Below are positions 15,671-41,382 of a stretch of 41,382 nt of DNA, piece by piece. The notes beneath the pieces were generated by a model. The model ran no database searches and was not told the DNA's origin. It saw only the letters and a list, made by a program, of their open reading frames with translations. Source of the DNA: Clostridia bacterium (GTDB lineage: Bacteria; Bacillota; Clostridia; Oscillospirales; SIG627); contig JAFWZW010000021.1 in the NCBI GenBank assembly GCA_017517325.1, positions 1-41,382 on the forward strand. Direction: 5' to 3'. How positions within the stretch are numbered: the stretch's first letter is position 1; every line of letters begins with the position of its first letter. The position numbers and the translations under genes were made by a program.

Positions 15671-16900
15671 TTACATGTAGCATGGAATAGCAAACAATTG
15701 ACCACTAAAGAAAAACTCCTTTTCATCGACCAACATAGGTTCTATAACTACATAATCCAATCTATCATCTTGAGGATTCCATTTAATGGATTTTCGATAT
15801 GGACTAACATAACAACGCTTTCCAAGACAAGTTTTTTCTGTCGTCGAAAAGATTTCTTCATTTATATTTAGCAATTTGCTTACTTCGCCTGCGGCAATTC
15901 CATCTGGAGTATGAAACGCACAGATAACACCATCAATCATCGGTTTCATTATGCTAACAACATTTGTAAAATTAGCAGTTCTTGGTATAGATAACTTGAT
16001 TTTTAGTCCTAAAGTAGTTTCGCTTCCATCTTCAAAACATTTTACTAACTCCGGTGATTGCTTGATTGCTAAAAAATAATCGGTTGCTTTTGAGATTGAA
16101 TTGACTCTTTCAAGATGAACATTATTCCATTCGCAAATTCGTTCATGCTCCCACCAATATCTGCATCTCCCTTTGGGGGCCAAAGAATAACGATAGAGGT
16201 ATTGGAAATCCCAATTCTCAAAGATGCATATTTCGTTCGGTTGCATTCTTTGAAAATACACAGTAGTTTCTTTGCTTAGTGCCGAATAAAAAGATGTTGC
16301 ACCTATATTATAAAACAAGGCGTTTTCAACATCAGTAAACTGAGAGGAGGCACATCCATATTGGGCATGTAGAATTTGATTGCCAAATGGTTGTAACGCT
16401 TTCAACTTGGATTGTATCAGTTTTCGAAATGCTGCTTGCTTTGAATCGGGTTCAAATGGTATCTTGATTTTCGAACAAGCCATCACTTCACAATCGGAAG
16501 ACAATATAATGTAGTCTTCTGTGAAAATGATGTCGCGGATACTGTGAAAATCATATATTTCGGAAAGTTTTATTGCAACACATAGGGGGTCAAAGTATTC
16601 TCCTTTTCCTGTTAAGAATTCTGAAGCAAAGTCAATAATGCCATCACAAATACACCCTAAAAACGTGTAATTATCATCCTCGCCTTCAACAATATCAAGA
16701 TAATGTTCCCAAAAATCAATATCGTAATTATTATATCTATCGTAAAAGGGGAAGCTCTCAAACCCTGCTTTTGCTTCTTCGATCAGAGAAGTCCAGGTGT
16801 GGCAAAATCTCTCGATATTATCAATGAATTTATAGCCTTCTTTAGCCGTAACAATTGCACATATATATTTGCTGTGATGTAAATATAAATCTGTTTTCAT
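15671..16900 (-). CDS. Uncharacterised 409-residue protein in AT-rich patch
   Basis: I do not recognise this protein. It has no signal peptide, no membrane segment, and no motif I can name. It is mixed alpha/beta, rich in aromatic residues, Cys and Tyr. The middle (about residues 150-300) has many W/Y/C residues, and the last 120 residues look beta-rich. Codon use and base composition are clearly more AT-rich than the backbone on both sides, which indicates acquisition by transfer. The ATG at 16900 has only a weak ribosome site (GGAGGGCAAGGC some 10 bases upstream). It is followed by the hairpin array, which may act as its transcription end. Confidence 0.65.
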   Translation of the reverse strand: MKTDLYLHHSKYICAIVTAKEGYKFIDNIERFCHTWTSLIEEAKAGFESFPFYDRYNNYDIDFWEHYLDIVEGEDDNYTFLGCICDGIIDFASEFLTGKGEYFDPLCVAIKLSEIYDFHSIRDIIFTEDYIILSSDCEVMACSKIKIPFEPDSKQAAFRKLIQSKLKALQPFGNQILHAQYGCASSQFTDVENALFYNIGATSFYSALSKETTVYFQRMQPNEICIFENWDFQYLYRYSLAPKGRCRYWWEHERICEWNNVHLERVNSISKATDYFLAIKQSPELVKCFEDGSETTLGLKIKLSIPRTANFTNVVSIMKPMIDGVICAFHTPDGIAAGEVSKLLNINEEIFSTTEKTCLGKRCYVSPYRKSIKWNPQDDRLDYVVIEPMLVDEKEFFFSGQLFAIPCYM

Positions 16901-17000
16901 GTAGTGCCTTGCCCTCCATCAAATTTCTATTTATCTGTGAATATACTTTATCACACATTTTTAAATAATCAAGGCATCACCTACGTGCCATAAACTAAAC

Positions 17001-17399
17001 TCATTCATTTATATCGTCCTCCGTAACCTTAAATTGATCGAAAAAAGGAAAGTATTGACTTCCGTATTTTGCTCTAAATCCGGAAATTTCTCCGTAAAAA
17101 GTATGCAATGGACGAAGATTCATACAGATTTCGGGCATATTATGAATCGTGTCAGCAAAAGCATTGACTTTTACAGAATCACCTTCACTTATAACTCGTA
17201 ATAGCATTTCTATGCAATATACTAAAATGTCATTGTTGTTTTCCCTGATATGTAAATTCAATTCTTCAAAAAAAGGTATCAAACGACCCTTAAAATATTC
17301 AAATTTTTCCTCATTTTCTCTTTTTGAAATTTTTCTTGCAAACGAGAAACGAGCAGAGATAAAAATGCTTTTTATTTCTCTATAAAAATTCATATTCAT
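17001..17399 (-). CDS. Uncharacterised 132-residue protein in AT-rich patch
   Basis: The product is small, mostly helical, rich in Phe, Glu and Lys, and has no recognised domain, signal or membrane segment. The start at 17399 has GGAGGCGGTG upstream. It lies 100 bases upstream of the 409-residue gene on the same strand and shares its AT-rich composition, so the two probably moved together. A toxin-immunity or other two-gene accessory role is possible but not shown by the sequence. Confidence 0.6.
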   Translation of the reverse strand: MNMNFYREIKSIFISARFSFARKISKRENEEKFEYFKGRLIPFFEELNLHIRENNNDILVYCIEMLLRVISEGDSVKVNAFADTIHNMPEICMNLRPLHTFYGEISGFRAKYGSQYFPFFDQFKVTEDDINE

Positions 17400-35579: not shown

Positions 35580-36257
35580 ATGTTCGGATCCAAACTTAAC
35601 GTAAGACGTTTTGAAAACCGTATCGAGCGATATGAAGCCGTGCCCGTTCAAAAGGGCAAGATCCTTTTTTACGGCCACTCCCTTTTCACCCGTTGCTCCT
35701 TTATTACCAGGCATCAGGAAAACCCTATGCTGGAGGAAGAGGTACGTATGAAGGATGGCTCCCAGGCCATTATCAACCACGGCTTCGGTACCAGCAGTGC
35801 CGATGATCTTTTGTATTATTACAGCCGTATGGTCCGCCCCTATGAGCCCCGCGCTCTGGTGCTTGCCACTATGGGTAACGACGTGGGCTACGGCTATGAT
35901 GCCAAGGATATTATGGAGATCCTGGCAAGGGTGATCCAGTGGGCCAAGGCGGATTTCCCCGATATCCGCATTTACTGTTTCGCAGGCAGCCCCAGCGCCA
36001 AGCATAAGGGTATGAAGGATCGCTATACCCGCGTGCGTAAGGAATACAACGAATGTCTGGAGGCCTTCTGCAATCAAACGGAGAATTGCGTTTACGTTCC
36101 TATGCATCAGGCAGCCTTCCTGTATGAAAACCCCGAAGACATCGGCGATTACGATAAGGTTAGAGACGATCTTTTCTTGGAGGATGGCCACTTCAATCCT
36201 CAAGGCTATGCGCTCTTTATGGATTTTGTTCGCGAGCTTCTTGACGATCTGCTCTAA
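35580..36257 (+). CDS. SGNH/GDSL-type hydrolase, copy 1
   Basis: The 225-residue protein has the four blocks of SGNH esterases: GHSLFTRCS (Ser in GHS instead of GDS, about residue 33), GFGTSSADDL (Gly), MGNDVGYG (Asn) and the C-terminal LEDGHFNPQGY (Asp and His). There is no signal peptide, so it works in the cytosol on an acyl or acetyl ester; substrate unknown. The following gene is a close paralogue. Ribosome site is AGTGAGGAGTAAGG. Confidence 0.85.
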   Translation: MFGSKLNVRRFENRIERYEAVPVQKGKILFYGHSLFTRCSFITRHQENPMLEEEVRMKDGSQAIINHGFGTSSADDLLYYYSRMVRPYEPRALVLATMGNDVGYGYDAKDIMEILARVIQWAKADFPDIRIYCFAGSPSAKHKGMKDRYTRVRKEYNECLEAFCNQTENCVYVPMHQAAFLYENPEDIGDYDKVRDDLFLEDGHFNPQGYALFMDFVRELLDDLL

Positions 36258-36281
36258 TACGGTTTAAAAAGGAGAAACAAT

Positions 36282-36965
36282 ATGTTTGGTTCAAAATTAA
36301 AAGTGCGCCGCTTTGAAAGCCGTGTTGAGCGTTATGAATCCGTTCCGGTAGAAACGGGCAAGATCCTTTTTTACGGCCACTCCCTTTTCACCCGCTGCTC
36401 TTTCATCACCAGATCTCAGGAAAACCCCAAGCTTGTGGAAGAGGTACGTATGAAGGATGGCTCCCAGGCCATTATCAACCACGGCTTCGGTACCAGCAGT
36501 GCCGATGACCTTTTGTATTATTACGATCGACTGATCCGCCCCTATAAGCCCCGTGCTCTGGTGCTTGCCACCATGGCAAACGACGTGAGCTACGGCTACA
36601 ACGCAAAAGATATTATGGAGATTGAGGCCCGTATCGTCCAGTGGGCACAGGCGGATTTTCCGGGCATCCCCGTCTATTGCTTCAACTGTGTTCCCACATT
36701 GAAGAGCAAAGGGCAAAAATCCGCCTTCACCCGTATTCGCAAGGAATACAACGAATATCTGGAAGTTTTCTGCGCCTCCAGAGAAAATTGCATCTACGTT
36801 CCCTTGGAAAAGCAGGCGTTCTTCTTCGAAAATCCCGAAGACGTGGGCGATTACGATAAGGTGCGCGAGGATATCTGGGCGGTAGACGATACCCACTTAA
36901 ATCCAAAAGGATATGCAATGTTTATGGATTTCATCCGTGAACTGCTTGCCGACCTTCTGAACTGA
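36282..36965 (+). CDS. SGNH/GDSL-type hydrolase, copy 2
   Basis: The 227-residue paralogue of the preceding gene has the same blocks: GHSLFTRCS, GFGTSSADDL, MANDVSYG and DDTHLNPKGY (Asp, His). The two share long exactly identical DNA patches in the N-terminal half and differ more in the C-terminal half. It begins 24 bases after copy 1 with AAAAGGAGA upstream. Confidence 0.85.
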   Translation: MFGSKLKVRRFESRVERYESVPVETGKILFYGHSLFTRCSFITRSQENPKLVEEVRMKDGSQAIINHGFGTSSADDLLYYYDRLIRPYKPRALVLATMANDVSYGYNAKDIMEIEARIVQWAQADFPGIPVYCFNCVPTLKSKGQKSAFTRIRKEYNEYLEVFCASRENCIYVPLEKQAFFFENPEDVGDYDKVREDIWAVDDTHLNPKGYAMFMDFIRELLADLLN

Positions 36966-37019: not shown

Positions 37020-37553
37020 TTACTCCTCCAGTTGGCGCCCCAAAAAGATACCCGCCGTCTGGATCAGGGCCTTTTCCGTTTCGCCCACCTCCTTCAATTC
37101 CTGTCGCAGGCAGGCAACCCCGCCGATCACGTCTCCCTCGGATAAAATGGGCATCATGGAGGAAACGTACCACCCCTCCGGTCCCATGGGGATCCGCAGA
37201 GCACCGGAGTAGTAGGTAAACATCTGCCGCCCCTCCAGCACTCGCTCTACCTCGGAAGCCACCTTTTGGTCAATCGAAACCTTTTTTGAGACCCCCGCAC
37301 AGGCAATGATCGCATCCCGATCAAATACCGCCACTGCGATCCCGCAGCTCTTATGCAGTGTGTCGCAATACCCCTGCGCCTCCGCCAGCATTTCTCCCAC
37401 CGGGGAATACTTCTTAAAAATTACCTCCCCATCCCGATCCGTGTAGATCTCCAGCGGGTCCCCCTCTCGGATGCGCATAGTGCGGCGAATCTCTTTCGGT
37501 ATAACCACACGACCCAAATCGTCGATTCTACGAACTATTCCTGTTGCTTTCAT
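37020..37553 (-). CDS. spoVT: Stage V sporulation regulator SpoVT
   Basis: SpoVT is a forespore-stage transcription regulator. The 177-residue protein has the N-terminal AbrB swapped-hairpin DNA-binding domain (MKATGIVRRIDDLGRVVIPK, residues 1-20, continuing KEIRRTMRIREGDPLEIY) and a C-terminal GAF domain, with normal length. Its first ten codons lie in a 38-base repeat (37525-37562) also found 3.6 kb away at 41147-41184, so the gene start seems to have been supplied by the inserted element. Ribosome site AAGGAGA lies 11 bases upstream of ATG 37553. Confidence 0.95.
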   Translation of the reverse strand: MKATGIVRRIDDLGRVVIPKEIRRTMRIREGDPLEIYTDRDGEVIFKKYSPVGEMLAEAQGYCDTLHKSCGIAVAVFDRDAIIACAGVSKKVSIDQKVASEVERVLEGRQMFTYYSGALRIPMGPEGWYVSSMMPILSEGDVIGGVACLRQELKEVGETEKALIQTAGIFLGRQLEE

Positions 37554-37562
37554 ATATAAATC
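37525..37562. repeat. Left attachment-site-like direct repeat (spoVT codons 1-10 plus leader)
   Basis: The 38 bases match 41147-41184 at 37 of 38 positions (one T/A difference at repeat position 12). The repeat covers codons 1 to about 10 of spoVT and the bases just upstream of its ATG. Confidence 0.88.
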
Positions 37563-37614
37563 AATCTCCTTGTTTTAGTAATAGTGATACTATTATCTGT
37601 AAAACAAGGAGATT
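37563..37614. repeat. Inverted repeat with 15-bp arms upstream of spoVT
   Basis: AATCTCCTTGTTTTA (37563-37577) and TAAAACAAGGAGATT (37600-37614) are exact reverse complements, with a 22-base centre that itself contains AATAGTGATACTATT. One arm holds the spoVT ribosome site. Confidence 0.85.
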
Positions 37615-37619
37615 TATAC
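37591..37619 (-). promoter_or_regulatory. Forespore-type (sigma-F/G-like) promoter of spoVT
   Basis: On the reverse strand GTATA (37619-37615), 17-base spacer, GATAATA (37597-37591), close to the sigma-G consensus GHATR-N17/18-CATNHTA with one mismatch. Use in the forespore is inferred from the known control of spoVT. Confidence 0.55.
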
Positions 37620-37636
37620 TTGACGTTCAGCAAAAC

Positions 37637-38194
37637 TTAAATAGCCGATATTGTGTTTAACAATTCTTCGAAACAACAATATCCAGCAGAAGCATTGAAA
37701 TGCCCCGCATTTTTAATTAATTTCGGAGTCGCTTTAATTTCAAAAGCAAATTCCTCTAGTTTGACAAATGGAATAAATGGGTCATTGTCAGAAAAGTAAG
37801 CATACCTTGTCGGAACAGTCTTATCTATATCTGAGCAAAAATTGGAGGGGAAATAGAAACTTCCGTTTAAATCATCCATATGATCTCCGCTATAGAAATT
37901 ATTATAGCCAGCTACAGATATTAAAGCCTTGATTTTAATGTTAGTCTCCGCTAAAAACTTTGCAGCACATACTGCGCCACAACTATGACCAATTAAAACG
38001 GTTTCTTCGTTGATGATACCTTTTTTTACATAATAATCAAGCAATTCCTTCCAAGAAGAATATTCTTGATTGTTCGGGGTGGGAAAAGTAGGAATTGTAC
38101 ATAAAATTTCTTCTTCTGCCAACTTGTTCTCCATCCAGGGAAACCAATTCTCAAAGGGCTTTCCGTACGAGCCGTGTAAAATAAAAACATTCAT
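37637..38194 (-). CDS. RBBP9/YdeN-like alpha/beta serine hydrolase
   Basis: The 185-residue small hydrolase has an N-terminal oxyanion-loop strand VFILHGSYG (residues 3-11), nucleophile elbow GHSCG (Ser71), acid in DNDPF (Asp138), and base in AGHFN (His165), the catalytic order of the RBBP9/YdeN group. These are serine hydrolases of largely unknown substrate. It is the last gene of the element operon, starting 12 bases after the methyltransferase stop behind GGAGGAAAATC. All catalytic residues are intact. In a defence setting it could process a nucleotide- or acyl-linked signal or act as effector; that is inference. Confidence 0.85.
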   Translation of the reverse strand: MNVFILHGSYGKPFENWFPWMENKLAEEEILCTIPTFPTPNNQEYSSWKELLDYYVKKGIINEETVLIGHSCGAVCAAKFLAETNIKIKALISVAGYNNFYSGDHMDDLNGSFYFPSNFCSDIDKTVPTRYAYFSDNDPFIPFVKLEEFAFEIKATPKLIKNAGHFNASAGYCCFEELLNTISAI

Positions 38195-38206
38195 TAGATT
38201 TTCCTC

Positions 38207-39043
38207 CTAAAAGCATTTTGAATTTTGTTTTGTTACGATATACAATGGGAAATTGTTTGAATAAACATCTTCACCGTATTCTACGCAATGAATTTTAAGA
38301 TATTTATTGAGAAGTTTTTCATAATCCGAAATATTGGGAACATGAAATTTGAATTTCATTTCACTATCCCACCCTACACCTTTAAAGTGCTTTAATGTTT
38401 CACTAGTAATAAGTCCTTCTCTGTGTAACGATATCAACAAATTGTACTGATCTTGAAAAGAAAGCAAATTGTTTTTATCTAGAGAATGCATTGTAAGATA
38501 AAAAGATAAAGCAGAATACGGGTGATAAGGCGCTCCTGAATAGTAGTCTTTTATTACATCTCTTATTGGCTTTATTTTCTCTTTAGGCACGAAGAAACTT
38601 TTACCAAGAAACAACCCATTTGGGGTTAATGCTTTGCCGATTTTCTCTATGAATTCCTCTAATTGTTCTGGAGGTATGTTGCCTATGGCTAAATCTCCAA
38701 TTATTATATCAAAGTAATTTTCATAGGATAAATTTTGCCAATATTCGCATATGTAGTGTTCCTTATATTCACTTGTTTCAATTATAACCTTATGCCTAAG
38801 TTCTCTATTTATCGCATTGTTATAATCTGGATTTATATCCATAACCCAAACTTCAAAATTCTCTTCATATCCCCAGTCTCTAAACTCAGGTGTAGAGCCC
38901 AAAACCAACATTCGTAAGCGTCTTTTTTCAAAATTCATAAGACGATGTGCGTATTTAGTGTATATCGCTAATTCGGATACGGTTGGACGAGATGGCCCCA
39001 CCATTTTGGTCCATATGTGAGCAAGTTCTCCATTCCATCCCAT
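38207..39043 (-). CDS. Class I SAM-dependent methyltransferase
   Basis: The start is ATG 39043, five bases after the TIR stop, with AAAGGAGGAATAAG upstream; the longer frame runs back into the TIR gene. The 278-residue product has motif I MLVLGSTPEF (residues 45-54), the acidic strand end VMDIN (Asp69) and the motif IV-like strand FDIIIGDLA (Asp117). It lacks the NPPY/DPPY motif of DNA amino-methylases, so a small molecule, RNA or protein substrate is more likely than adenine in DNA. The C-terminal third carries a helical extension. Its role beside a TIR protein is unknown. Confidence 0.8.
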   Translation of the reverse strand: MGWNGELAHIWTKMVGPSRPTVSELAIYTKYAHRLMNFEKRRLRMLVLGSTPEFRDWGYEENFEVWVMDINPDYNNAINRELRHKVIIETSEYKEHYICEYWQNLSYENYFDIIIGDLAIGNIPPEQLEEFIEKIGKALTPNGLFLGKSFFVPKEKIKPIRDVIKDYYSGAPYHPYSALSFYLTMHSLDKNNLLSFQDQYNLLISLHREGLITSETLKHFKGVGWDSEMKFKFHVPNISDYEKLLNKYLKIHCVEYGEDVYSNNFPLYIVTKQNSKCF

Positions 39044-39048
39044 TGTTC

Positions 39049-40599
39049 TTATTCCTCCTTTATTGCAACTAAAATATAATACAGGCATTGTGGTATAGTA
39101 CATTGCTGCTGAACATTGTCTTGTTCCGATTCAAAAAGTGCCTCAAGACAATCTTCAAAATAAGAAAGTATGCGAACATATTCGCTTTTGTATCCTTCCA
39201 CTATACCTTTTTTGATGATTCTAAAACTTACAGAAGCAAGTATGATACTTGCTAAAGTTTGATTGGAATCGTATTCGCAGCTGAAATTTGCTATACTTAA
39301 CCAATGTGATATGTTTTCTTTGGCAAAAATATGAGAAAAAATTTGCCTTATTTCAGTAATATACTCACCTGTTGCATTGTTTACCAAAATGGATTCTAAG
39401 CAAAGTCCAGTCGCTTCCCATTGGGAAACCCAACTTCCGGCTCCGCTTTTCCAATAACCACTTGATTCTAATCTATCAACAACAGATTGAAGCCATCTGC
39501 TTTTAATATCAAAAAAATCATTTCTTTCAACATAAGTTAGATTGCCAAATTTAGGATAATAGCGCAAAACATTTCGAATATCATCGTTACTATATCTCGC
39601 CAAACTTATTAAAGCACGTGCAGTTATCCACGGTAATCTATAATGATACAATCCTCCTCCCGCGGTATCACAAGCTTCTGTTTTGAATAATTCTTCAACT
39701 GTCGCCACACGTATTGCGTTATATATATCGTTGTTAGGATTGTTTTGACACAGTCTGTTAATTATTCCAACCATTAAGCCATAATAGTAATTATAGAAAA
39801 TTAAATCTTTTTTCTGCTGGCTATCTATATATTTAGCGCGCAATCTTTCACTATAATATACACCATTATCATCTTCATCTCTCATGTTGGCAATAAGCTT
39901 TTCGTTTTCTTCTGGAACGACGAGTATTTGATTCGGATCAGGAAGAATTCGACCTCCCCGAGCCAACTTACAACTATGAGCATAAAATTCTTCTTCTAAG
40001 TTGTAATAATCCTCTCTATCTGTTAAACCTAACATAAACGCAATTTCAATAAGGAAGTATTGAGATGAAATAGCGCTAACCCAATTTTGGTCAGTTAATG
40101 TTCTTGAATTGATATATCTTATGATATCTTTCTTGAGTTTTTCCTGTTTTAGTGAAATTGTAGATTTCTTCCCTAATAAAGAATTCATATTCAAACAGAG
40201 GCTGTCAATACATTTGAAAGGATCATTAACAGCGTCGATGCTTTGTTCTACGCATGTGAAAAAATCTATTATTTTTTTGCCCGTTTGTGTTATATCATCA
40301 CATTTTTCTATAGTGTATCTAATAATGATTTTTTCAAAATGCACGCTTCGTTCTAACTCTCGATAAACATATTTCGATTTTATAGAATGAGAGGACTCAA
40401 TAAATAATACAATTTGGGAATTTTGTATTCCATTAATTATTTCTTCCGGATAATATTCTCCTGGTTTGATTCCAGTTTCAGAAGGAGCAAGCCAACATGT
40501 TTGATCGTATTTAGTTGTAGCTACTCTATAAATTTCATCTGCTATTTTTTGATCTTTTGAAGAGTATGAAATAAAAATGTTGAACATGTTAAACACCAT
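39049..40599 (-). CDS. TIR-domain protein with large helical C-terminal domain
   Basis: The 516-residue protein begins with a TIR domain (about residues 5-115): NIFISYSSKD (7-16), the CWLAPSETGIKPGEYY loop, IVLFIESSHSIKSKYVYREL with the conserved Glu81 that in active TIR NADases is catalytic. Residues about 160-516 are mostly helical with paired-helix units, likely a sensor or toroid domain; I cannot name it. Bacterial TIR proteins commonly degrade NAD+ or make cyclic ADP-ribose signals in anti-phage defence. It heads a tight reverse operon with a methyltransferase and a serine hydrolase. ATG 40599 or GTG 40596 could be the start (TATAGGAGG upstream). AT-rich throughout. Confidence 0.87.
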   Translation of the reverse strand: MVFNMFNIFISYSSKDQKIADEIYRVATTKYDQTCWLAPSETGIKPGEYYPEEIINGIQNSQIVLFIESSHSIKSKYVYRELERSVHFEKIIIRYTIEKCDDITQTGKKIIDFFTCVEQSIDAVNDPFKCIDSLCLNMNSLLGKKSTISLKQEKLKKDIIRYINSRTLTDQNWVSAISSQYFLIEIAFMLGLTDREDYYNLEEEFYAHSCKLARGGRILPDPNQILVVPEENEKLIANMRDEDDNGVYYSERLRAKYIDSQQKKDLIFYNYYYGLMVGIINRLCQNNPNNDIYNAIRVATVEELFKTEACDTAGGGLYHYRLPWITARALISLARYSNDDIRNVLRYYPKFGNLTYVERNDFFDIKSRWLQSVVDRLESSGYWKSGAGSWVSQWEATGLCLESILVNNATGEYITEIRQIFSHIFAKENISHWLSIANFSCEYDSNQTLASIILASVSFRIIKKGIVEGYKSEYVRILSYFEDCLEALFESEQDNVQQQCTIPQCLYYILVAIKEE

Positions 40600-40644
40600 A
40601 AACCTCCTATACCAACAACTGTTGCAATTCTCATTGAAATTTTT

Positions 40645-40833
40645 TCAAATAACAGCGTTTTGTTTAAAATTGCTTTTCGTTAAAACGTAATCTATAGGTA
40701 CCAACCACGGCCCCGTTCCACCTAGTCGCATAGCACCTTCAATTTTACCATCTTTGCAAAGCTGTTGGATCCAACGCTCAGTTACATCGGCTTTTTCGGC
40801 TGCTTCTTTCACAGAAATAAAATTAAATTCCAT
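40645..40833 (-). CDS. Small excisionase/MerR-like HTH protein
   Basis: The 62-residue product has a winged-helix HTH of the helix-turn-helix 17/excisionase kind: ISVKEAAEKADVTERWIQQL (residues 6-25), then GKIEGAMRLGGTGPWLVP. It could be an excisionase (recombination directionality factor) or a regulator of the element operon. It lies 45 bases upstream of the TIR gene on the same strand, behind a perfect promoter. The start ATG 40833 has CGAGG upstream. Proteins of this type are also found upstream of toxin and defence genes. Confidence 0.8.
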   Translation of the reverse strand: MEFNFISVKEAAEKADVTERWIQQLCKDGKIEGAMRLGGTGPWLVPIDYVLTKSNFKQNAVI

Positions 40834-40878
40834 AATCGACCTCGTTTCGCCAAAAATAGATATTAATCAACACTTTTT

Positions 40879-40907
40879 ATTATAACTTCGGCAAAACGAA
40901 TTGTCAA
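40879..40907 (-). promoter_or_regulatory. Perfect consensus promoter of the element operon
   Basis: On the reverse strand TTGACA (40907-40902), 17-base spacer, TATAAT (40884-40879). The spacer contains the dyad TTCG-N6-CGAA (forward 40887-40900), a plausible operator for the small HTH protein. About 45 bases separate it from the start codon. Confidence 0.88.
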
Positions 40908-40962
40908 TATAATCCAATTGATTATTGCACATATTCTCCTAATTATAAAATCGCAATATTAA

Positions 40963-40993
40963 AACCGAATGAACAAGTGAGTTCATTCGGTTC
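40963..40993 (-). terminator. Hairpin between the stub of spoVT and the element operon
   Basis: AACCGAATGAAC pairs exactly with GTTCATTCGGTT; on the reverse strand it is followed by TTTTAATATT. It could stop transcripts entering from the old spoVT promoter. Confidence 0.7.
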
Positions 40994-41060
40994 TTATTCT
41001 TCATTTATGTAGAGCGTTGCCCTTATTCTACAAAAAACGCCGAAAAACCATAAAATTAGG

Positions 41061-41143
41061 GGCTTGTGTTCAATAGGGCAAACTTGCAAAAATCCTAGTG
41101 TTTATGCAGATTTCAGGAGGTTTGCCCTATTATAACACAAGCC
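41061..41143. repeat. Large inverted repeat next to the right attachment-like repeat
   Basis: GGCTTGTGTT plus AATAGGGCAAAC (41061-41083) pairs with GTTTGCCCTATT plus AACACAAGCC (41120-41143), 22 paired bases with a small internal loop. A further copy of the TTGCCCT(T)AT word lies at about 41021. Its position four bases inside the direct repeat suggests an end structure of the element. Confidence 0.75.
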
Positions 41144-41175
41144 TCTATTCTACGAACAATTCCTGTTGCTTTCAT
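41113..41175 (-). pseudogene. spoVT: Truncated 5' stub of spoVT
   Basis: The reverse frame starts at ATG 41175 and reads MKATGIVRRI, exactly as SpoVT, before diverging to EACVIIGQTS and a stop. It has a ribosome site (AAAGAGGAGA) and a forespore-type promoter, but only 20 codons. It is what is expected of the original gene start after the element entered near codon 10. Confidence 0.75.
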
Positions 41176-41184
41176 ATATAAATC
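41147..41184. repeat. Right attachment-site-like direct repeat
   Basis: Copy of 37525-37562 with one mismatch, in the same orientation, 3622 bases away. Confidence 0.88.
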
Positions 41185-41212
41185 TCCTCTTTTTACAATT
41201 TTAATGTGATAT

Positions 41213-41241
41213 TAGTATCACACTTTTTGTAGAAATTATGA
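41213..41241 (-). promoter_or_regulatory. Forespore-type promoter of the spoVT stub
   Basis: On the reverse strand TCATA (41241-41237), 17-base spacer, GATACTA (41219-41213). It has the same layout as the promoter at 37591-37619, with mismatches at the first base of each box. A dyad GTGATA/TATCAC overlaps the -10 region. Confidence 0.45.
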
Positions 41242-41278
41242 GTAGAATTTCCAATTGTTTTTAAATTTTAATAAACAA

Positions 41279-41306
41279 AAGGCACCTCAAACTAATTGAA
41301 GTGCCT
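41279..41306 (-). terminator. Terminator of the gene entering from the right edge
   Basis: AAGGCAC and GTGCCTT with flanking TCA/TTGA pairs form a stem; on the reverse strand it is followed by TTTTGTTTATT, 15 bases after the stop at 41322. Confidence 0.75.
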
Positions 41307-41321
41307 TCTGCTTGCTACTAT

Positions 41322-41382
41322 TTATTCTTCTATATTTTCTTCGTAAACTGGAATAGTCATATTTTCCAAAGCACTCCGAAGC
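41322..41382 (-). CDS. C-terminal end of an unknown reverse-strand gene (partial)
   Basis: The last 19 codons and a TAA are visible, reading LRSALENMTIPVYEENIEE, ahead of a reverse-strand terminator. The family cannot be judged from so little. It would be the chromosomal neighbour of spoVT before insertion, or the end of a second accessory element. Confidence 0.5.
   Translation of the reverse strand, partial: LRSALENMTIPVYEENIEE

Follow-up and report, generated by a model that had tools for sequence, protein, structure and literature searches.

The locus considered here raises the question of what kind of element has placed the genes of a TIR protein, a methyltransferase-like protein and a serine hydrolase beside spoVT in a Clostridia bacterium (SIG627), and whether these genes form one defence system. 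The window, i.e. the whole stretch of DNA that was analysed, is contig JAFWZW010000021.1 of assembly GCA_017517325.1 (41,382 nt), and the element region occupies its positions 37,020–41,184. An earlier note on this DNA had regarded the three genes as a self-contained conflict module within a small integrated element. To judge from the sequence, the chances are about even that the stretch of 37.5–41.2 kb represents a recombinase-less island unit resembling cis-mobilizable elements (CIMEs), inserted in codons 10–12 of spoVT and carrying what is likely a defence operon with a TIR effector. The anatomy of the unit, the hotspot in which it lies and its recurring end are directly observed.

The unit is delimited by two direct repeats of 46 nt (37517–37562 and 41139–41184), which are 91% identical by repeat comparison and consist of the first codons of spoVT together with the end of the spoVT leader. 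All features of the unit and of its boundaries are read on the minus strand. The left repeat copy belongs to the intact target gene (37020–37553, 177 aa; SpoVT_C PF15714, E 8e-29, and MazE_antitoxin PF04014), the 5' end of which lies within the repeat. The right copy belongs to a truncated spoVT stub of 20 aa (41116–41175, by frame reading), which starts with MKATGIVRRI and continues into element sequence. Behind the stub the element end (41057–41147) is formed by a conserved terminal motif and a long hairpin of -42.9 kcal/mol (RNA fold), equalled by none of 200 shuffles; similar ends occur in relatives. The four genes between the repeats include no recombinase or transfer gene. The GC content is 33.5% across 37637–41056 as compared with 50.1% across 1–37000, so that the AT-rich element between direct repeats described in the earlier note is confirmed.

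On the element side of the intact gene lies the spoVT leader (37566–37618), recognized by pattern match, the inverted arms of which are able to pair with the ribosome site. In the alignment A1 of 15 leaders, CTCCTTGTTTTA can pair with TAAAACAAGGAG, covering the ribosome site. Two-sided changes are seen in 14 cells of this alignment (7.7 in shuffles), with a covariation score of 0.155 as compared with 0.087 (0/500 shuffles as high in both cases). The number of pairs with two-sided change (3 versus 2.9) is not above that in shuffles, and a +1 slide of the pairing still scores 0.138. Such a fold could insulate spoVT against read-through from the island operon.

The DNA to the right of the second repeat remains AT-rich (28.8% GC), and position 41382, 198 bp past the repeat and 207 bp past the start codon of the stub, is the last of the contig; therefore the island may extend further. 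The right flank 41212–41294 recurs twice upstream of spoVT in a relative, G186 (92.8% over 83 positions), and the second of these places matches window positions 41175–41271 (89.8% over 98 positions). Because of this match to two G186 places at 90–93%, another island unit probably lies beyond the right edge of the window, and the flank is probably the end of that neighbouring unit. The shared unit end of about 80–98 nt (316–411 and 1000–1078 of locus L036 from G186; 41175–41294 in the window) may represent a second type of island boundary.

The gene order within the unit is as follows: a small helix-turn-helix (HTH) gene, the TIR gene, the methyltransferase-like gene and the hydrolase gene, separated by 45, 5 and 12 nt, respectively. 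Strong ribosome sites are read at the closely spaced genes, and the HTH gene is preceded by a sigma-70-type promoter (40879–40907) with an exact TTGACA-17 nt-TATAAT sequence (40902–40907 and 40879–40884). The short gaps, the ribosome sites and the exact promoter are the reasons to consider the four genes one operon. The reverse operon, its order and the small HTH gene with a perfect promoter ahead of the trio were all found as the earlier note had claimed. The inverted 10-mers TCGTTTTGCC and GGCGAAACGA (9/10 matching; 40842–40899), located around the -10 box, constitute a possible operator and suggest autoregulation of the operon.

The TIR protein (39049–40599, 516 aa) matches TIR_2 (PF13676) with 50.4 bits (cut-off 28; E 3.8e-13) over residues 8–114 and can be assigned to this family. 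Its Glu81, which had been said to be intact, is in place; by analogy with the TIR family this residue would be the NAD+-cleaving catalytic one. The C-terminal part (about 150–516) belongs to no known family. The second protein (38207–39043, 278 aa) resembles class I S-adenosylmethionine-dependent methyltransferases and is recognizable at the domain level, its match to Methyltransf_25 being weak (18.5 bits, below the cut-off of 27; E 0.0034). The ribosome site favours its start at 39043 rather than at 39103. The hydrolase (37637–38194, 185 aa) is a YdeN/RBBP9-type serine hydrolase, and its membership in Ser_hydrolase (PF06821) is well supported (56.4 bits, cut-off 22, E 4.5e-15; PDB 1uxo, E 3e-13). 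Both the family match and the triad Ser71/Asp138/His165 agree with the earlier description. The HTH protein (40645–40833, 62 aa) is excisionase-like and is likely a regulator; it matches HTH_17 with 25.8 bits, just under the cut-off of 27 (E 1.3e-5), as well as TIGR01764 (E 0.001) and PHROG 6401 (E 1.7e-5).

The position of the unit is not peculiar to this genome. A pattern made of the first ten spoVT codons was searched in 23 genomes of the family, including the own genome of the window, and was found at 25 places in 17 of them. Eight of these places are stubs of 12–73 aa, distributed over six genomes (G000, G277, G164, G206, G141 and G175), in four of which (G000, G277 on contig C10, G206 and G141) a stub and a full spoVT share one contig. 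Four of the eight stubs diverge from SpoVT at codon 10–12, as in the window, and the other four at about codon 33. BLAST matches to the leader or stub together with the end motif added G235 and a third place in G164. Contigs end 588, 311 and 395 bp upstream of full spoVT in G216, G164 (contig C13) and G263, respectively, which fits a repeat-rich, variable site. The codon-33 truncations (L035 3268, L080 6263, L081 7177 and L082 7589) are followed by sequences similar by eye, and this truncation point suggests another element family at the same gene.

The end of the unit recurs at these places. The hairpin region of the window as a query found two of the six other genus members at E < 1e-5 (G277 and G186), both times upstream of spoVT. 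Seven element ends were aligned, and in comparison with the window end 0/500 shuffles scored as high in four cases and 1/500 in two, the ends of G277 C10 and G186 having been found through their similarity to the window and hence not being independent. For the ends that were located solely by the position of a stub the corresponding numbers are 1/500 and 0/500 (two places in G164), 0/500 (G277 C20) and 1/500 (a conjugative element, see below). The weakest of the 21 pairs of ends is G277 C20 with G186 (32/500 shuffles as high). No description of spoVT as an insertion site was found in the literature searched, among the matches listed.

The spoVT-start pattern was found at 46 viral loci, one of which is a stub and belongs to the conjugative element mentioned above (IMG/VR 2897530398_000009, a 64-kb record; L143 and L152–L154). 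The other 45 have frames of 81–181 aa and were read as ordinary AbrB/SpoVT-like proteins. The record contains a leader-like stretch, the spoVT stub and the end motif, transfer genes (a type IV secretion system coupling protein, a TraG P-loop ATPase and a topoisomerase) and three large serine recombinases in tandem, which lie at the end opposite the stub and the motif; it is an integrative and conjugative element (ICE). At its junction spoVT resumes from codon 11–12, with the 6-nt repeat GACGAT at both junctions. The ICE thereby disrupts spoVT, whereas beside the unit of the window the gene stays intact. The end motif used as a pattern in viral contigs returned the ICE and two other loci, both lacking a spoVT stub. 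Relatives of the end-proximal serine recombinase are present in 6 of the 23 family genomes at E <= 1e-30, and three adjacent serine recombinases are found only in G100 among these, on a contig other than that of its spoVT. The ICE is a candidate donor class for units of the window's type. A 26-nt stretch of the ICE end recurs inverted just ahead of the recombinase genes.

The structured hairpin at one end and the serial small units devoid of recombinase might also be expected of an integron-like cassette, the hairpin serving as an attC-type site. This is highly improbable: the repeats in common consist of a long stretch of spoVT, and in the ICE, the end of which is similar, three large serine recombinases are located at the other end. 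The integron reading was dropped, together with a crossover in the leader core, as the stubs diverge at codon 10–12 or at about codon 33, and codon 11–12 is where the ICE junction falls.

Sixteen proteins were chosen by hand from the open reading frames (ORFs) upstream of spoVT or of a stub in relatives and were domain-scanned. Six of them are defence-, toxin- or antitoxin-like, namely an OLD/Gabija-like nuclease, an HsdR, two HEPN proteins, an RNase and a barstar, the last two forming a pair upstream of a spoVT stub in G277. A DUF4143 ATPase among the 16 matches a PADLOC candidate. Because hotspot relatives carry some defence- and toxin-like genes, the conflict-module proposal fits in so far as it concerns a small AT-rich, repeat-bounded element in a hotspot with some cargo of this kind.

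The RNase-barstar pair also speaks for another explanation, an addiction module that maintains the island. In such a module the TIR protein would be a toxin silenced by the HTH protein or by its partners, which would agree with the first position of the HTH gene, with its excisionase-like product and with the possible operator over the promoter. Since domain scans found no antitoxin family in the operon, we regard this explanation as improbable.

Whether the three larger genes act together was approached through their recurrence, using genome samples that overlap between searches and do not make up the whole collection. The TIR domain has matches in 13 of 295 other genomes of the order, always within query residues 3–191 and in frames of 111–937 aa; a further, weaker match to the domain lies on contig C8 of the own genome. 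For 8 of these 13 order members the TIR locus, covered over 10–20 kb each, showed no relative of the methyltransferase, the hydrolase or the HTH protein (tblastn E <= 1e-3). For the C-terminal part of the TIR protein (about 365 aa), 397 other genomes of the phylum yielded no relative at E <= 0.001. At E 0.1 this part matched 17 of 390 other class genomes. A single match reached E <= 0.001 (5.4e-4); it lies in a frame with a stop codon and was not supported on inspection by eye. Four of the 17 (L157, L158, L164 and L165) were viewed and read by eye as SbcC-like coiled coil or unrelated frames. The full-length TIR protein has no match in phages or plasmids, the C-terminus at E 10 gave one plasmid record (E 6), and among viral contigs none was confirmed for the TIR protein, for the methyltransferase or for the C-terminal core. 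A two-motif pattern of the C-terminus returned 19 genome loci, none of which encodes it (best tblastn E 1.6); these were chance hits, and a prenyltransferase-like toroid fold of the C-terminus has no support. The methyltransferase has two weak generic matches and no close relative in 290 other class genomes. At a threshold of E <= 1e-10 the hydrolase has relatives in 7 of 340 other genomes of the class (nine loci), and within at most about 1.5 kb on each side of these no relative of the TIR protein, methyltransferase or HTH protein was detected (tblastn E <= 1e-3). At one of these loci (L094) the hydrolase gene adjoins a small methyltransferase unrelated to that of the window by tblastn.

These searches bear on two explanations of the trio. 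The first is a three-part TIR system in which the methyltransferase and the hydrolase would be required, e.g. to make, modify or degrade the TIR product or to protect a host target. The 5- and 12-nt gaps, the strong ribosome sites, the one promoter and the location of all three genes inside one island unit speak for it, while the lack of any recurrence of the trio in the samples searched and the 8 of 13 order TIR loci devoid of the partners speak against it; we consider it unlikely. The second explanation takes the hydrolase and the methyltransferase as chance passengers, metabolic or decoy cargo, so that only the TIR gene, or none, matters. It would account for the mixed cargo in the upstream units of relatives and for the housekeeping-like rows in which hydrolase relatives appear by eye, and it is opposed by the tight spacing, the common promoter and the single regulator. 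It appears rather unlikely. The earlier note had itself named the absence of co-occurrence elsewhere as grounds for giving up its proposal, and in the samples searched none was seen, so that its "one system" part is left unsupported; co-occurrence cannot show whether an orphan trio is a system.

A number of observations weigh against a CIME-like unit with a TIR defence operon. The samples searched yielded no further copy of the trio and hence no evolutionary evidence of joint function, and in seven of the nine hydrolase loci, which were viewed, the neighbours are mostly housekeeping-like by eye. Nine of the 16 upstream proteins are unknown or other (e.g. an acyltransferase, a YbjQ-like protein, a zinc-ribbon protein and a weak sortase match), and the defence-like share of 6/16 stands without a background rate. 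PADLOC matched three of ten upstream proteins (the OLD/Gabija-like nuclease, HsdR and the DUF4143 protein), the RNase and both HEPN proteins being among the seven without a match. Furthermore, no stub was detected beside HsdR (G196) or beside the HEPN pair (G073). As to the carrier, four tyrosine-recombinase matches lie in the middle of the ICE record, and therefore the enzyme moving the ICE is not proven; the repeat is 46 nt in the window versus 6 nt in the ICE, and the units and the ICE need not share an enzyme. The end-proximal serine recombinase of the ICE has no relative (E <= 1e-30) in the own genome, which is 81% complete, and for this reason the mobility of the window unit is inferred. 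Finally, the AlphaFold2 models obtained from single sequences are poor (pLDDT 37.5 for the TIR protein and 35.1 for the methyltransferase), and helices in the TIR C-terminus are seen solely in the former, low-confidence model.

The CIME-like unit with its TIR operon could work as follows. The unit would have inserted in codons 10–12 of spoVT; on one side the gene has retained its leader and a complete 5' end, and the other side is occupied by a stub. The HTH protein would repress its own operon via the operator around the -10 box until infection relieves or bypasses the repression; alternatively, the C-terminus of the TIR protein may sense infection. The TIR domains would then assemble, and the Glu81 site would consume NAD+ or make an ADP-ribose signal, halting the infected cell. 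The methyltransferase and the hydrolase may be co-translated accessories (for self-protection or for alteration of the target or signal) or passengers. A bolder version, in which the locus is a new TIR immune system with an orphan helical sensor or assembly domain, with a methyltransferase and a hydrolase acting on the TIR product or target and with spread via a family-wide spoVT hotspot, seems unlikely.

Two further features of the window deserve mention. Beside spoVT, at 35580–36965, two ORFs of 225 and 227 aa stand in tandem; by eye they closely resemble each other and look like a recent duplication. A second AT-rich stretch (15671–17399, 33–40% GC) adjoins tRNA-Trp and tRNA-Met and holds two ORFs of 409 and 132 aa without a Pfam match.

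tRNA and phage-satellite hotspots have been used to collect accessory genes. If the spoVT hotspot holds, the first spoVT codons would similarly give a DNA-search address for accessory genes, defence included, of uncultured spore-formers. The TIR protein represents an architecture without known relatives, and should the three genes form one system, TIR immunity would gain the chemistry of methyl transfer and of ester or amide hydrolysis.

Comparison of the operon genes with PADLOC 2.0 models gave no strong match, and no known multi-gene defence system was recognized. This is consistent with the earlier statement that no described system has exactly this set: the operon corresponds to no known subtype, and its PADLOC and NCBIfam matches are weak and at the domain level. 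The unit would combine a known kind of cargo, a TIR effector, with a known kind of carrier, a CIME-like one; neither the combination nor the site was found described in the literature searched, among the matches listed. With Thoeris the operon shares a TIR domain, which matches ThsB models weakly (ThsB_TIR, 16.1 bits, under the cut-off of 21.2; PADLOC ThsB, E 1.5e-4, residues 5–101). It differs from Thoeris in the absence of a ThsA-type partner, the place of which is taken by the methyltransferase-like protein and the serine hydrolase, and in the C-terminus of its TIR protein, which has no match. Likeness to MADS is limited to weak PADLOC mad1 and mad2 hits of the HTH protein and the methyltransferase (E 2e-4 and 3e-5); these matches are partial and of weak score, and the other MADS models matched none of the four proteins. 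With the YdeN/RBBP9 serine hydrolases the window hydrolase shares a full-length family match and the triad, and to our knowledge such hydrolases are not known as part of TIR systems.

Among carriers, ICEs with serine-integrase triplets have been described, with repeats of 2–8 bp and disrupted targets such as mutT, traG and hsdM (PMC4701971). The IMG/VR ICE resembles them in its three tandem serine recombinases at one end and in its 6-nt repeat in a disrupted gene, while spoVT is not among the targets named in the available passages of that source; the window unit differs from them in lacking a recombinase and in its 46-nt repeat. CIMEs, described as remnants in tandem (PMC5704250), are partly different from the unit according to the passages available, as no partner ICE is seen in the genome of the window and both the leader and the 5' end of spoVT remain intact. 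In other respects the unit resembles the CIMEs of these passages: it is small and without recombinase or transfer genes, it has attachment-site-like repeats (46 nt of spoVT) and a recurring end motif, and it shows signs of tandem units at one gene.

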